Origin: Deferribacteraceae bacterium
Lineage (GTDB): Bacteria; Chrysiogenota; Deferribacteres; Deferribacterales; JAISNW01
Direction: 5' to 3'
DNA: 34,739 nucleotides
Assembly (NCBI GenBank): GCA_031256375.1
Contig: JAIRQX010000083.1
Coordinates: forward strand, 1-34,739
This document shows positions 8,936 through 28,168 of this stretch, piece by piece. The translations under genes and the position numbers were made by a program. The notes below the pieces were generated by a model. The model had not been told where the DNA came from and made no database searches. It worked only from the letters and a program-made list of their open reading frames with translations. Positions within the stretch are counted from its first letter, which is position 1; the number at the start of each line of letters is the position of its first letter.

Positions 8936-8944
8936 ATTATAGCA
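8936..8944 (-). promoter_or_regulatory. Extended -10 promoter element of mqnB
   Basis: The minus strand reads TGCTATAAT, a perfect extended -10, with no convincing -35. Transcription would start at about 8929, next to the ATG at 8928, which predicts a leaderless message. The element lies in a segment shared with the repeat at 26826-26856. Confidence 0.5.
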
Positions 8945-8990
8945 GTTCCACTTGTCTTTGCGAGGAACGCAGTGACGAAGCAATCCAGAA
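8937..8990. repeat. Dispersed palindromic-type repeat upstream of mqnB
   Basis: The block TTGCGAGGAACGCAGTGACG followed by AAGCAATCC (8958-8986) resembles a class of short intergenic repeats seen in many bacterial genomes, with TTGC and GCAA at its ends able to pair. The neighbouring TTATAGCAGTTCC (8937-8949) and TTGCGAGGAAC (8958-8968) both recur at 26826-26849. It fills most of the gap between nrdJ and mqnB. Confidence 0.6.
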
Positions 8991-9045: not shown

Positions 9046-11349
9046 TTAGCTGCAATGAGAATAGCCGCATGAATAACACATATTACACCCCTCAATATAC
9101 TCTATAGGTCCTTCGCATTCGGGGCAGGCGCCGATGTTTACCTTTTTTTTCCCTGCTATGGCGCTCTTTTTTTCGTACTCCTCTATAAAGGTTTCAACGC
9201 TGAGTGGTTTTGTGACTATTGTTGTAAACTCTATCGGTGTGGATATGGCTCTTTCTAGCGCTCTTGCCGCAGCATCCGCGCATGACATCACAGCATTTGG
9301 TCCAAACCCGCTCTTTTTATGGCAGGATATAGATTTAAGCTGTCGTATAATAAGTTCCGGTTCACTGCCGGAACGTAAAGCCAGCGATATAAGCCTTCCT
9401 ATCGCTTCACTTTGGCTCTGGGCGCATCCACCGGCTTTCCCTATATGAATGAATACTTCAAAAATTCTCCCCTTTTCGTCCTGATTGATAGTGACATACA
9501 TTTTGCCGCAGCCGGTAACCATTTCTATTGTTTTTCCTATAAGCATATCGGGGCGCGGACGCGGAGCATAACTCTCCGTGAGTAACGGTACCGCGGCGCC
9601 CGCATTGGCAGTCTCACTCCCCTTAATGCCTACGTTTATCACCTGTCCCGACCGACTGCCGTCGCGGTAAATTGTAACCCCCTTGCATCCCTGCTCGTAA
9701 GATAAATCATACACCGAGCGTACATCGTCAACTGTCGCATTCTCGCTGAAGTTGACAGTCTTGCTGACTGCGTTATCGGTGTATTTCTGGAAAGCCGCCT
9801 GCATTTTCACATGCCATTCAGGAGTTATTTCGTGGGCGGTTACAAAGATGTCTTTCCATCTGGCGGGTACATCATCGCTGTCACTGATACAACCGTTTTC
9901 CGCGATTGCATTGAGCAGCTTTTCCGAATAAAACCCTTCCCGTTTTGAAACATTAAGAAAAAGCGGATTTACCTCTGTCAGTTTGTTGTTATCCATTACG
10001 TTGCGGTAAAACGCCAGTGCAAAAAAAGGTTCAATGCCGCTGGAAGCTCCGCCTATAATGCTTATGGTACCTGTGGGCGCTATGGTGGTAATCGTAGCGT
10101 TACGCATATTCTTAAACCCTAATTCAGGGTAAACGCTGGCGTCAAAACCGGGGAAGTTGCCACGTTTTACCGCCAGTTCCGCAGATGCTAGACGCCCCTC
10201 ATCACGGATAAATTGCATAATTTTTTCCGCAAAAGAGGCAGCTTTACCGGAATTATACGGAATCTCCAGCATAACCAGCATATCTGCCCAACCCATGACG
10301 CCAAGACCTATTTTACGGTTCTTTCTGGTCATGCTCTCAATTTCGGGAATAGGGTAATTATTCATCTCAATTACATTATCAAGGAAACGGACAGCTGTAC
10401 GCACTGTTTTGCGAAGTTTATCCCAGTCAGCATCGCGCCCTTTCACGAAGTTGGCAAGATTTACAGATCCGAGGTTGCATGATTCATAAGGCAGCAGAGG
10501 CTGTTCGCCGCACGGGTTTGTACTTTCAATCTCCCCTTCCGCCGGAGTGGGATTATCCCTGTTTATGCGGTCAAGGAAGATAATCCCCGGATCTCCACCT
10601 TCCCACGCAAGCTGCACCATCTCGTTATATACCTTTGCCGCGCTAATCGATGACGTTTTTGCTTTGTTTTTTGGATTGTAAAGATTATACTCTCTATTAT
10701 CCTTAACAGCTTTCATAAACTCTTCAGTTATACCCACGGATATGTTGAAGTTGGTAAGTTTGGATTTATCTTTCTTTGAGTGAATAAAGTCCATGATATC
10801 AGGGTGATCAACGCGCAGTATCCCCATATTGGCGCCTCTGCGGGCCCCCCCCTGTTTAATTGTTTCCGTTGCCGCGTCAAATACGCTCATAAAGGAAACA
10901 GGACCGGAAGATACGCCTTTTGTTGTTTTTACAACATCATCTTTGGGACGCAGACGGGAAAATGAAAATCCTGTGCCGCCGCCGGATTTATGAATCATAG
11001 CAGTATATTTTACAGCGTTAAATATCCCGTCCAGAGAATCTTCAACCGGCAGTACAAAACACGCGGAAAGCTGCTGAAGCTCACTGCCTGCGTTCATAAG
11101 GGTTGGAGAATTGGGCAAAAAATTCATCTCCGTCATTTCGTTATAAAAATCTTCCGCATATTTAGCGGCATCAGCATTAGGATCAAAGATTTTTTCAGCC
11201 AGCGCAATATTTTCCGCTACTCTGATAAAAAGTTCTTTAGGCGTCTCTCTGATCATTCCTGAGTCATCTTTCAGTAAATAACGTTTCTGTAATACTGTCG
11301 AGGCGTTGGGATTTAACGCTGGCTCTTTGGTAAAACGGTTCCGGCTCAT
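9046..11349 (-). CDS. nrdJ: Adenosylcobalamin-dependent ribonucleotide reductase (class II)
   Basis: This enzyme reduces ribonucleotides to deoxyribonucleotides using adenosylcobalamin, with or without oxygen. From the ATG at 11349 (AAGGTG six bases upstream) it has 767 residues. Seen are the first redox cysteine (LSACFVLP, about residue 97), the NPCGEQPLLPYESCNLGSVNL core with the active-site Cys and Glu (about 278-298), the KIGLGVMGWADML segment, and PTGTISIIGG. A C-terminal extension ends in a CxxC...CxxC zinc-ribbon-like tail (CPEC...CYSC), typical of the NrdJ/NrdZ type. A GTG three codons upstream is a less likely start. No nrdA, nrdB or nrdD is present here. Confidence 0.95.
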   Translation of the reverse strand: MSRNRFTKEPALNPNASTVLQKRYLLKDDSGMIRETPKELFIRVAENIALAEKIFDPNADAAKYAEDFYNEMTEMNFLPNSPTLMNAGSELQQLSACFVLPVEDSLDGIFNAVKYTAMIHKSGGGTGFSFSRLRPKDDVVKTTKGVSSGPVSFMSVFDAATETIKQGGARRGANMGILRVDHPDIMDFIHSKKDKSKLTNFNISVGITEEFMKAVKDNREYNLYNPKNKAKTSSISAAKVYNEMVQLAWEGGDPGIIFLDRINRDNPTPAEGEIESTNPCGEQPLLPYESCNLGSVNLANFVKGRDADWDKLRKTVRTAVRFLDNVIEMNNYPIPEIESMTRKNRKIGLGVMGWADMLVMLEIPYNSGKAASFAEKIMQFIRDEGRLASAELAVKRGNFPGFDASVYPELGFKNMRNATITTIAPTGTISIIGGASSGIEPFFALAFYRNVMDNNKLTEVNPLFLNVSKREGFYSEKLLNAIAENGCISDSDDVPARWKDIFVTAHEITPEWHVKMQAAFQKYTDNAVSKTVNFSENATVDDVRSVYDLSYEQGCKGVTIYRDGSRSGQVINVGIKGSETANAGAAVPLLTESYAPRPRPDMLIGKTIEMVTGCGKMYVTINQDEKGRIFEVFIHIGKAGGCAQSQSEAIGRLISLALRSGSEPELIIRQLKSISCHKKSGFGPNAVMSCADAAARALERAISTPIEFTTIVTKPLSVETFIEEYEKKSAIAGKKKVNIGACPECEGPIEYIEGCNMCYSCGYSHCS

Positions 11350-11392: not shown

Positions 11393-11429
11393 TATATAAA
11401 ATATAAATATAGTTATTTCTGCAAAAAAT

Positions 11430-25329: not shown

Positions 25330-26207
25330 GGGAGGCGATTGATTTTGAACGTGAACCCGGCTTAAAAAAATTCTGCGGTATAGTAACGGATGTGCTTAAT
25401 TCAAATTTGCAGGCTATAACAAACGCCCCCCTTAATATAAATATATTGGAAACTGTTCACTGTACGCCGGATGATCTTATTAACGGCTATATGAACGGGG
25501 TTATTATCGCGGCGAGTGAAGTGAAAACTGAACTTGAAATAGGTCTCCTTTTTAATATGAAAGATATCACCATATTAGCTGATATGATGATGATGGGGGA
25601 AGGGGAATCCCGTAACGATCTGGACGATGAATTAAAAGACGCTGTTGTTGAGATAGGCAATCAGTTTTTCGGCGGGCTTTCAGTGCCTGTAGAAACACAG
25701 ATGGGAAAAAAACTTCAGTTTAAAACGGATGATGCGTCTAAACTTCAGAATACAAACTCGTTCCAGTCAGACAAATATATAGCGGTTGATATGCAGGGAG
25801 AGCTTAAGGGCGCCACGCTTCAATGCAGATTATATATAGATGAGGGTTTTTCATCTTTAATAGAAACCCAGTCCGAAAAACCGGCGTCCGCGCCTGATTT
25901 TTTCGGTCAGTCACCGGAACCGGCGCGTCAGACCGCAGTTATAAGCCCAAACTTGGAAATGCTTATGGATATAGAAATTCCTATAAGCGTAAGGATGGGA
26001 TCGGCGCAGCTTTTTCTCAAAGACATTCTTGGTCTCGGTCCCGGAAATATTGTGGAACTTGACCAAAACGCGGACGAATCTATTGAGTTGGTCGTCAATG
26101 ATAAAGTTATAGCCAAAGGAGAGGTTGTTATCATTGACGGATATTTCGGTTTCAGGATAAAAGAGATCATAAGCAAAGCGGAACGTATAAAAAGGCTAAA
26201 AGATTAA
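25326..26207 (+). CDS. fliY: FliY-type switch protein: CheC/CheX-like domain fused to FliN
   Basis: The C-terminal part (about 208-290, MLMDIEIPISVRMGSAQLFLKDI onward) is a classic FliN/SpoA domain, which builds the base of the C ring. The N-terminal 200 residues are a CheC/CheX-like domain with the motif E109-I-G-N112 (DAVVEIGNQF), matching the ExxN signature of CheC-family CheY-P phosphatases. A variable linker joins the two (about 190-207). This is the architecture of FliY rather than the short FliN. Whether the phosphatase is active is inferred. It is the last gene of the unit and overlaps fliM by 4 bp. Confidence 0.85.
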   Translation: MREAIDFEREPGLKKFCGIVTDVLNSNLQAITNAPLNINILETVHCTPDDLINGYMNGVIIAASEVKTELEIGLLFNMKDITILADMMMMGEGESRNDLDDELKDAVVEIGNQFFGGLSVPVETQMGKKLQFKTDDASKLQNTNSFQSDKYIAVDMQGELKGATLQCRLYIDEGFSSLIETQSEKPASAPDFFGQSPEPARQTAVISPNLEMLMDIEIPISVRMGSAQLFLKDILGLGPGNIVELDQNADESIELVVNDKVIAKGEVVIIDGYFGFRIKEIISKAERIKRLKD

Positions 26208-26220
26208 AACGGTCTGCTGG

Positions 26221-26279
26221 TGAGACGGCGCTTTATACTCAACAGGCGAAGCCTGCTTCCGTTATGCGCCTTCGTCTCA
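26221..26279. repeat. Two-stem structured element after the flagellar unit
   Basis: The outer arms TGAGACGGCGC (26221-26231) and GCGC-CTT-CGTCTCA (26266-26279) pair over 11 bp with a 3-base bulge. Inside, CAGGC (26243-26247) and GCCTG (26251-26255) form a tight stem with a GAA loop. It begins 13 bp past the fliY stop. With no T-run it is more like a dispersed structured repeat or an RNA-stabilising element than a standard terminator. Confidence 0.5.
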
Positions 26280-26302
26280 GTTGAAATGCTATAGTCACGC
26301 CA

Positions 26303-26816
26303 ATGCGGACGGATAATTTGAAAAAATTATTTATATTCTTATTAATTGTTATCCCGACAGTGTCAGAAGCCGATGATATAGGCATTTCTTCTTTTATCCT
26401 AATTAAGGATAAAGTCACCATACATGAACCGTTTTACGCGAAAAAATTAACTGATACCGGCGCGATAATAACGAGTTTCGCGTATGGCTAAAGTTTTATT
26501 GACGGACACTACCTGAAATTGTCGCCCGGGTACAGATATATGCCATTAATAAAATGGCTTTTTATAGTTGCCGGAGGGGAATACGCATACCTTAACAACA
26601 CATATGATAATTATAATTATCATATGTGTTGGTTTAATGACAAAAATAGGCGCAAAGACGAACAAATCATTATACTTTTTTGCAAATTACAAAACCTCTT
26701 ATTATTTTTATGAGTTATATAGTAAAAATACAGATTTTATATGCTATAACTACAGAACGCCGGAATTGCGGGTTATGCATAATTTTATTGAAGCCGGCAT
26801 CGGCTATTCATGGTAA
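26303..26816 (+). pseudogene. Decayed outer-membrane beta-barrel protein gene
   Basis: A signal peptide (LKKLFIFLLIVIPTVSEA, then DDIG) starts the frame at 26303, which stops at 26489-26491. The same frame continues after the stop (SFIDGHYLKLSPGYRYMP...). A shift near 26650 then leads into a second frame ending HNFIEAGIGYSW at 26816. Alternating Tyr/Phe-rich strands and a final aromatic residue suggest a small outer-membrane barrel of about 170 residues. At least one stop and one frameshift break it. A perfect palindrome lies within it at 26596-26631. The exact family was not recognised. Confidence 0.65.
26596..26631. repeat. Perfect 36-bp palindrome with no spacer
   Basis: The left arm CAACACATATGATAATTA is followed directly by its exact reverse complement, centred between 26613 and 26614. 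Flanking bases (CTTAA / TTTAA) extend the pairing with small indels. It sits inside the decayed outer-membrane protein gene. Confidence 0.95.
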
Positions 26817-26826
26817 AAAATTTATT

Positions 26827-26856
26827 TATAGCAGTTCCTTGCGAGGAACAACTATA
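26827..26856 (-). terminator. Hairpin at the end of vsr, built from a dispersed repeat
   Basis: TATAGCAGTTCC (26827-26838) and GGAACAACTATA (26845-26856) pair at 10 of 12 positions around TTGCGA. On the minus strand the stem is followed by AATAAATTTTTT, so it could end vsr transcription. The arm includes the vsr stop codon. The same blocks occur upstream of mqnB at 8937-8968. Confidence 0.5.
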
Positions 26857-27265
26857 AGGTTTGTCTTAACCGGTCGCTTAATTTTGGCAAATTCATCTTC
26901 TTTGTTTCACACTCCCAAATAACCAATGTGTGCCAGCCTAAATTTTGTAGCGCTATAAGATTTAATTTGTCGCGCTGCATATTACCGTCAAGTTTCTTTT
27001 CCCAGTAGTCATGATTATTTTTTGGTCGGATTTGCGCATGACGGCAAGTTGGACAACCATGCCAGAAACAACCGTGAACAAATATCGCCATTTTATATTT
27101 TGGTAATACAATGTCCGGATTTCCGGGTATATCGCGTCTATGCAACCGAAAGCGATAGCCCATGCTATGCAAAAGTTTTCTCACTTTAATTTCTGAAGTT
27201 GTATTTGCGCTGTGAACCTTTGACATTATTGCGCTACGTTCCTCTTTATTAAACTTATCGCTCAT
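26852..27265 (-). CDS. vsr: Very-short-patch mismatch endonuclease Vsr
   Basis: Vsr nicks next to T:G mismatches made when 5-methylcytosine deaminates, starting repair to C:G. The 137-residue product has Glu 25, Asp 51 (GNPDIVLP), His 64 and His 69 (FVHGCFWHGCP), the same catalytic positions as the E. coli enzyme. Cysteines at 66, 71, 74 and 119 (WECE) can hold the structural zinc; here Cys 71 replaces the His of E. coli. It begins 6 bp after dcm and is surely co-transcribed with it. The region is visibly AT-richer than the flanking flagellar and sec genes, which suggests horizontal acquisition. Confidence 0.94.
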   Translation of the reverse strand: MSDKFNKEERSAIMSKVHSANTTSEIKVRKLLHSMGYRFRLHRRDIPGNPDIVLPKYKMAIFVHGCFWHGCPTCRHAQIRPKNNHDYWEKKLDGNMQRDKLNLIALQNLGWHTLVIWECETKKMNLPKLSDRLRQTL

Positions 27266-27271
27266 GTTCTT

Positions 27272-28168
27272 TTAAAGGAAGACCTCATTTAATACAGCTT
27301 TAATAACATTTACCGGAACTGCATTTCCCGCCTGCTTGCGCGTTTGGCCGTCATTACATACTATTTGAAATGTATCAGGAAATCCCTGCAATCTCAACAT
27401 CTCTCTTGGCGTTAGCCGCCGCCTGCCATTAACCAGTAAATAATTGTATGAAGCTCCTGCCCGTAAGGCGCAGGAATATGGATAACTTGATATATTGCCG
27501 CTTTTGTTTTCGTGCCAGATACTTGGAAAGTAGTCGCTTGTGTGTTTAGCCAACCGTTTTTCAATTATACGTTCACTTGCAAAATATTTCTCGTCCACAC
27601 ATTCGTCAGCTTCTAAAATATCTTCAAGTTTTCCGGTTATTTTATTAATTGGAAATAAAAAATCAACGCTGTTGTCAAGAAAGCCGACTATAATTGTCCG
27701 CTCTCGTTTTTGAGGAAGTCCGAAATCCAAAGCGTTAAGAACATCCCAGTAAACTCTATATCCAAGTTTTTCCAATGTATGGAGAATGGTTTGTAAAGTC
27801 TTACCCATATTATGGCGGCTTAGTTGCTTTACATTTTCCAAAATAAATAATCGCGGTTTTTTAGCTTCAAGAACCCTTGCAATTTCAAAAAAAAGCGTTC
27901 CGCGAATATCGTCAAATCCCAATCTATTACCAATTATACTAAACGGCTGACAGGGGAAGCCGGCAAAAAGCACATCATGGTCTGGTATTTCATCGTTTGC
28001 TATTTTGGTAATATCTCCATCCGGCATTAGTCCATAGTTCACAAAATAAGCTCGTTTCGCTTCCGCATCTAACTCGCTTGCAAAAATACATTTGCCCCCC
28101 AGAGCATCGGCAGCTTGATGAAATCCGCCAATACCCGCGAACAAATCAATATATGTAAAAGTAGCCAT
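27272..28168 (-). CDS. DNA (cytosine-5) methyltransferase
   Basis: This enzyme methylates cytosine C5 within a specific DNA site. The 298-residue product has motif I (DLFAGIGGFHQA), motif IV with catalytic Cys 73 (GFPCQPFS), motif VI (ENV, 111-113), motif VIII (QKRERTIIVG, 153-162), motif IX (RRLTPREMLRLQGFPD) and motif X (GNAVPVNV). All key motifs are intact. The target-recognition region (about 165-240) is short and its site cannot be read from sequence. It is paired with vsr; no restriction endonuclease was seen on either side, so it may be an orphan or the survivor of a restriction-modification system. Confidence 0.94.
   Translation of the reverse strand: MATFTYIDLFAGIGGFHQAADALGGKCIFASELDAEAKRAYFVNYGLMPDGDITKIANDEIPDHDVLFAGFPCQPFSIIGNRLGFDDIRGTLFFEIARVLEAKKPRLFILENVKQLSRHNMGKTLQTILHTLEKLGYRVYWDVLNALDFGLPQKRERTIIVGFLDNSVDFLFPINKITGKLEDILEADECVDEKYFASERIIEKRLAKHTSDYFPSIWHENKSGNISSYPYSCALRAGASYNYLLVNGRRRLTPREMLRLQGFPDTFQIVCNDGQTRKQAGNAVPVNVIKAVLNEVFL

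Follow-up and report, generated by a model that had tools for sequence, protein, structure and literature searches.

Template switching at quasipalindromes in E. coli, in which the polymerase stalls and for a short stretch copies the nascent strand, gives rise to perfect inverted repeats (PMC7202029), and template switching can make a long perfect hairpin in one event (PMC8794818). Loops of four bases are enriched at the instantaneous compensatory changes that have been attributed to this process (PMC8794818), and the homogenisation of hairpin arms is known in yeast coding genes (PMC8604942). Perfect palindromes are also substrates for cleavage; on the E. coli chromosome the cutting of a 460-bp perfect palindrome by SbcCD is lethal, short perfect palindromes are common, and the lower limit of hairpin cleavage by SbcCD in vitro lies at palindromes of 20-36 bp (PMC4245961). 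Here we describe a perfect palindrome of 36 bp that lies in a decayed gene of a Deferribacteraceae bacterium, within a contig of 34,739 nucleotides that is referred to as the window. The palindrome is probably a neutral mutational scar left by a template switch during replication, an ordinary explanation under which a mutational product of a known kind is met in a new place.

The palindrome occupies positions 26596-26631 and reads CAACACATATGATAATTA followed directly by TAATTATCATATGTGTTG (Table 1). All 18 of its 18 pairs are complementary and the spacer is 0 in both the sequence and the repeat search, and the earlier note was exact in calling it a perfect spacerless repeat. Symmetry ends at the first flanking pair, where A at 26595 stands opposite G at 26632. 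Each arm contains the self-complementary motif CATATG, and 2.3 tandem copies of the hexamer ATAATT make up the core, ATAATTATAATTAT. As a single strand the palindrome forms a hairpin with 16 bp of stem and four loop bases (z = -4.8).

Table 1 Features at and around the palindrome (positions in the window).
Feature	Position	Strand	Basis or remark
Hairpin repeat GTGAGACGGCGC...GCGCCTTCGTCTCA	26221..26280	+	5' boundary of pseudogene; seven copies genome-wide, whole or partial
Orphan outer-membrane-protein-like pseudogene	26303..26816	+	Translations and codon scan; ends ...GIGYSW-stop
In-frame nonsense codon TAA of pseudogene	26489..26491	+	Frame from 26306; residue 63
Likeliest frame-change interval	26591..26611	+	Codon scan, best point 26602; overlaps left arm
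Palindrome, left arm CAACACATATGATAATTA	26596..26613	+	Sequence and repeat search
Palindrome, right arm TAATTATCATATGTGTTG	26614..26631	-	Sequence and repeat search; exact reverse complement of left arm
MITE-like remnant, 30 bp, internally deleted, ends TATAGCAGTTCC	26827..26856	+	3' boundary of pseudogene
Vsr mismatch endonuclease gene	26852-27265	-	Downstream of pseudogene
C5 cytosine methylase gene	27272-28168	-	Next to Vsr gene

How readily could such a repeat arise by chance? Under a first-order Markov model, palindromes whose arms measure at least 18 bases are expected 1.2e-6 times in the window, and over the 1.95-Mb genome the expectation ranges from 7e-5 with the composition of the window to 1.1e-3 with the local AT-rich composition; the view that chance is a very unlikely source is upheld by these figures, which stand near 1e-6 for the window and at or below about 1e-3 for the genome. 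Because both arms contain CATATG and the core repeats a hexamer in tandem, chance is nevertheless somewhat less absurd than 4^-18 would imply. In a sample of 483 kb from the same genome, composed of the window and stretches from 40 other contigs (a 25% sample), this is the longest perfect palindrome, and the runners-up measure 24, 22 and 22 bp; unrelated bacterial contigs totalling 1.2 Mb reach no more than 28 bp. The 36-bp palindrome is genuine and non-random. The same genome holds other inverted repeats. Two near-identical perfect palindromes of 22-24 bp, AAAAAGTTCGTACGAACTTTTT, lie on one contig (L159:8052-8073 and 11316-11339) and are possibly terminators or an operator of the GTTCGTACGAAC type, and an inverted repeat with arms of 18-19 bases and a 7-base spacer, ATTCCAATTCTAAATTAA, occurs near contig ends (L136:74-118 and L154:8785-8827) and is probably a mobile element.

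The gene that carries the palindrome can be followed as a coding trace between fliY and vsr, from an ATG at 26303 to a stop at 26814-26816. Its 5' part runs in the frame of 26306 and its 3' part in the frame of 26307, and together with the in-frame TAA this frame change bears out the description of a decaying gene. With codon usage modelled on 18 clear genes of the window, the likeliest point of change is 26602, and the interval that comprises all points within two log units of the best overlaps the left arm; the scan is short-range, and the stops alone already confine the change to about 26568-26712, for which reason the scan corroborates the coincidence of frame change and palindrome rather than proving it. 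The product looks, by eye, like a small outer-membrane beta-barrel. This label, also given in the earlier note, fits the signal-peptide-like start, the alternating pattern and the C-terminal end ...FIEAGIGYSW, with its final ...GIGYSW, but draws no support from a family model, as comparison of the pseudogene with Pfam and NCBIfam gave nothing significant. Searches of 60 relatives, 51 genomes of the phylum, 385 genomes and, by tblastn, plasmids returned no intact homologue. The sole weak genome match (L176, E = 1.9e-4) is spurious and falls on a protein of 957 residues with RCC1-like repeats.

Upstream on the + strand lies the motor-switch pair fliM-fliY, with fliY ending at 26207 (Pfam FliMN_C), and tgt follows on the + strand after the Vsr and C5 methylase pair. 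No restriction enzyme gene is evident alongside this pair (26852-28168, - strand), which sits between fliY and tgt. Judged by reading the translations, fliY is followed in two genomes of the same family (G002 and G001) by response-regulator and chemotaxis genes and in two others (G003 and G004) by one prepilin-like and one HIT-type gene; the pseudogene and vsr are therefore absent from that place in these genomes. Elsewhere in the window, cumulative GC skew reaches its minimum near 11400, where the genes turn from mostly - to mostly +, and this minimum may reflect gene orientation only.

Both boundaries of the pseudogene are formed by degenerate palindromic repeats. The remnant at the 3' boundary belongs to an abundant MITE-like family of ~137 bp with inverted ends TATAGCAGTTCC, for which 42 matches are listed in genome G000 (140 first-look candidates, 40 scored). 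A full copy is found, for example, at L134:3247-3383, and the window holds a partial copy at 8938-8949 besides the remnant; the family was not found in four genomes of the same family of bacteria. Numerous contigs of the assembly break within this element. A second hairpin-repeat family, GTGAGACGGCGC...GCGCCTTCGTCTCA, is represented at 26221-26280 in the window, and a palindromic unit of 28 bp, TATAGCATTTCAA-NN-TTGAAATGCTATA, occurs at L141:3169-3196 and L160:5409-5436 and is represented by one half at 26281-26293.

The arm of the palindrome stands apart from these repeats. With up to 3 mismatches the 18-base arm has no second match in the genome, where a reversed control pattern gives five per strand, and the outer 14-mer has no other match with 1 mismatch. 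Across 45 other genomes of the order only scattered matches with 2 mismatches are seen, mostly one per genome and without excess. The full 36-mer has no match in the genome_contigs or viral_contigs collections, and the similarity of positions 26540-26690 to phages and plasmids is limited to chance-level pieces. With the arm present only once in the genome, neither a repeated operator nor a repeated transposon end is supported, and two alternatives raised in the earlier note, a dimeric-protein site in the sense of a repeated operator and the scar of an excised element, find no support on the same count and on the lack of any excess among the genomes of the order.

Other origins have to be weighed against this evidence. 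Because the arms are simple, the palindrome could grow from short seeds, and low-complexity arms of this kind could also have arisen in steps: slippage of ATAATT would have made the core, two CATATG hexamers would have flanked it by chance, and a small quasipalindrome correction would have matched the outer CAACA and TGTTG. The 2.3-copy tandem hexamer of the core and the self-complementarity of CATATG speak for such a series, but all 18 pairs must still match and the final step is itself a template switch, which turns this unlikely alternative into a variant of the best explanation. A transposable element or palindromic MITE that lost its middle, leaving its terminal repeats abutted, would suit a region strewn with MITE-like debris, in which the copy at 26827-26856 has itself shrunk to nearly bare ends, and TTAA abuts or lies within 2 bases of both palindrome ends (shuffle P = 0.023). 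Such a collapse is nonetheless quite improbable, as the 18-mer and the outer 14-mer have no further copies in the genome at the mismatch levels given above, the 45 other genomes of the order show only dispersed near matches, in most cases one apiece, and the arms resemble neither of the local repeat families. Nor was the arm found at the ends of any other copy in the genome, as would be expected of such a junction. Extension of the quasi-palindrome through the TTAA flanks gains just 4 bases, at a 2-base offset (shuffle P = 0.023).

Perfect two-fold symmetry would also befit a functional site, whether an operator bound by a dimeric protein, a dif-like site of recombination or a terminator hairpin. 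The palindrome, however, is inside a pseudogene and downstream of the neighbouring genes rather than in front of them; it is not at a promoter but lies 221 bp beyond the stop of the convergent vsr gene, it has no second copy in the genome, and a perfect match over 36 bp exceeds what such sites need; we regard this reading as very unlikely. Candidates for particular sites fared no better. There is no T-run in the flanks, the palindrome is absent from the terminator-like sites that were found, and Rfam gave no match in the window, palindrome included. ATAA-N6-TTAT at the centre is suggestive of the dif core, and the dif/Xer layout is an XerC half, 6 bp and an XerD half resembling TTATGTTAAAT; the right half here, TTATCATATGT, is identical to that XerD half-site at only 7 of 11 positions, and a scan of the genome with a dif consensus, itself not convincing, did not list the position of the palindrome. 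A functional site in single copy, such as one where an unknown dimeric protein binds or recombines DNA, acquired with the vsr-methylase pair and kept perfect by selection within an otherwise dead gene, is extremely improbable, and no present function is proposed for the palindrome. An artefact of the assembly or library would be conceivable in a draft of 128 contigs but is a very improbable source here, as the contig continues unbroken for 8 kb past the palindrome. Moreover, numerous contigs break off 117-119 bases into the MITE. This points indirectly to an assembly word of about 119 bases, far above 36 bp, although the end overlaps of the sampled contigs vary in length; a palindrome shorter than such a word would have been assembled together with its unique flanks.

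A template switch remains the probable origin, and its course may be pictured as follows. The polymerase would stall at a short imperfect inverted repeat, plausibly seeded by the ATAATT run and by CATATG, which is self-complementary and occurs twice; the nascent strand would snap back, extend by some bases on itself and return to its true template. One arm would thereby be replaced and the imperfect repeat made perfect, and the reading frame would shift whenever the gain or loss was not a multiple of three. The gene may already have been useless when this happened during replication, or the event itself may have helped to kill it. Because of the second lesion, the TAA at 26489, the region is under relaxed selection, and a template switch combined with relaxed selection accounts for the perfection of the repeat, its single copy and the coincident change of frame. 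A single-copy arm without near copies is, moreover, what is expected of a local event, and the four-base loop of the folded strand has the size that is enriched at changes attributed to template switching (PMC8794818). Because no ancestor or homologue was found, we infer the switch from the product alone, and the same holds for the arm it replaced and for whether it came before or after the nonsense mutation. Codon log-odds, computed over arms of such low complexity, single out neither arm as the original. The proposal of a template switch that also disrupted the frame has thus gained from the mapping of the frame break onto the palindrome, but it stays unproven, with no intact homologue in the data searched.

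Once formed, would such a palindrome persist? The claim that it is unstable was overstated for a length of 36 bp, which falls within the 20-36 bp given as the lower limit for SbcCD (PMC4245961). The 460-bp palindrome cleaved by SbcCD is like ours in its perfect symmetry and its capacity to form a hairpin, whereas the present one is over ten times shorter and at the edge of that limit (PMC4245961). Strong instability is therefore not expected, and by our reckoning the palindrome should be largely tolerated.

The locus adds, at most, one more natural case of a template switch in replication that left a perfect palindrome where a reading frame breaks, in a lineage without close named relatives here. 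Two marks of template switching at quasipalindromes are present, namely a perfect repeat with a spacer of 0 and a lesion that appears to coincide with the repeat. The parent sequence is known in the quasipalindrome systems of E. coli, whereas here the event is deduced from its product; as in the lacZ quasipalindrome reporters and the thyA hotspot of that organism, a perfect inverted repeat lies within coding sequence, and at the present locus the frame is changed as well (PMC7202029). The hairpins of RNA genes (PMC8794818) and the homogenised arms of yeast (PMC8604942) belong to functional genes and were recognised by phylogenetic reconstruction, in contrast to a decayed bacterial gene without relatives, but the likeness in kind is that one event creates or perfects a hairpin, as a single template switch would have done here.
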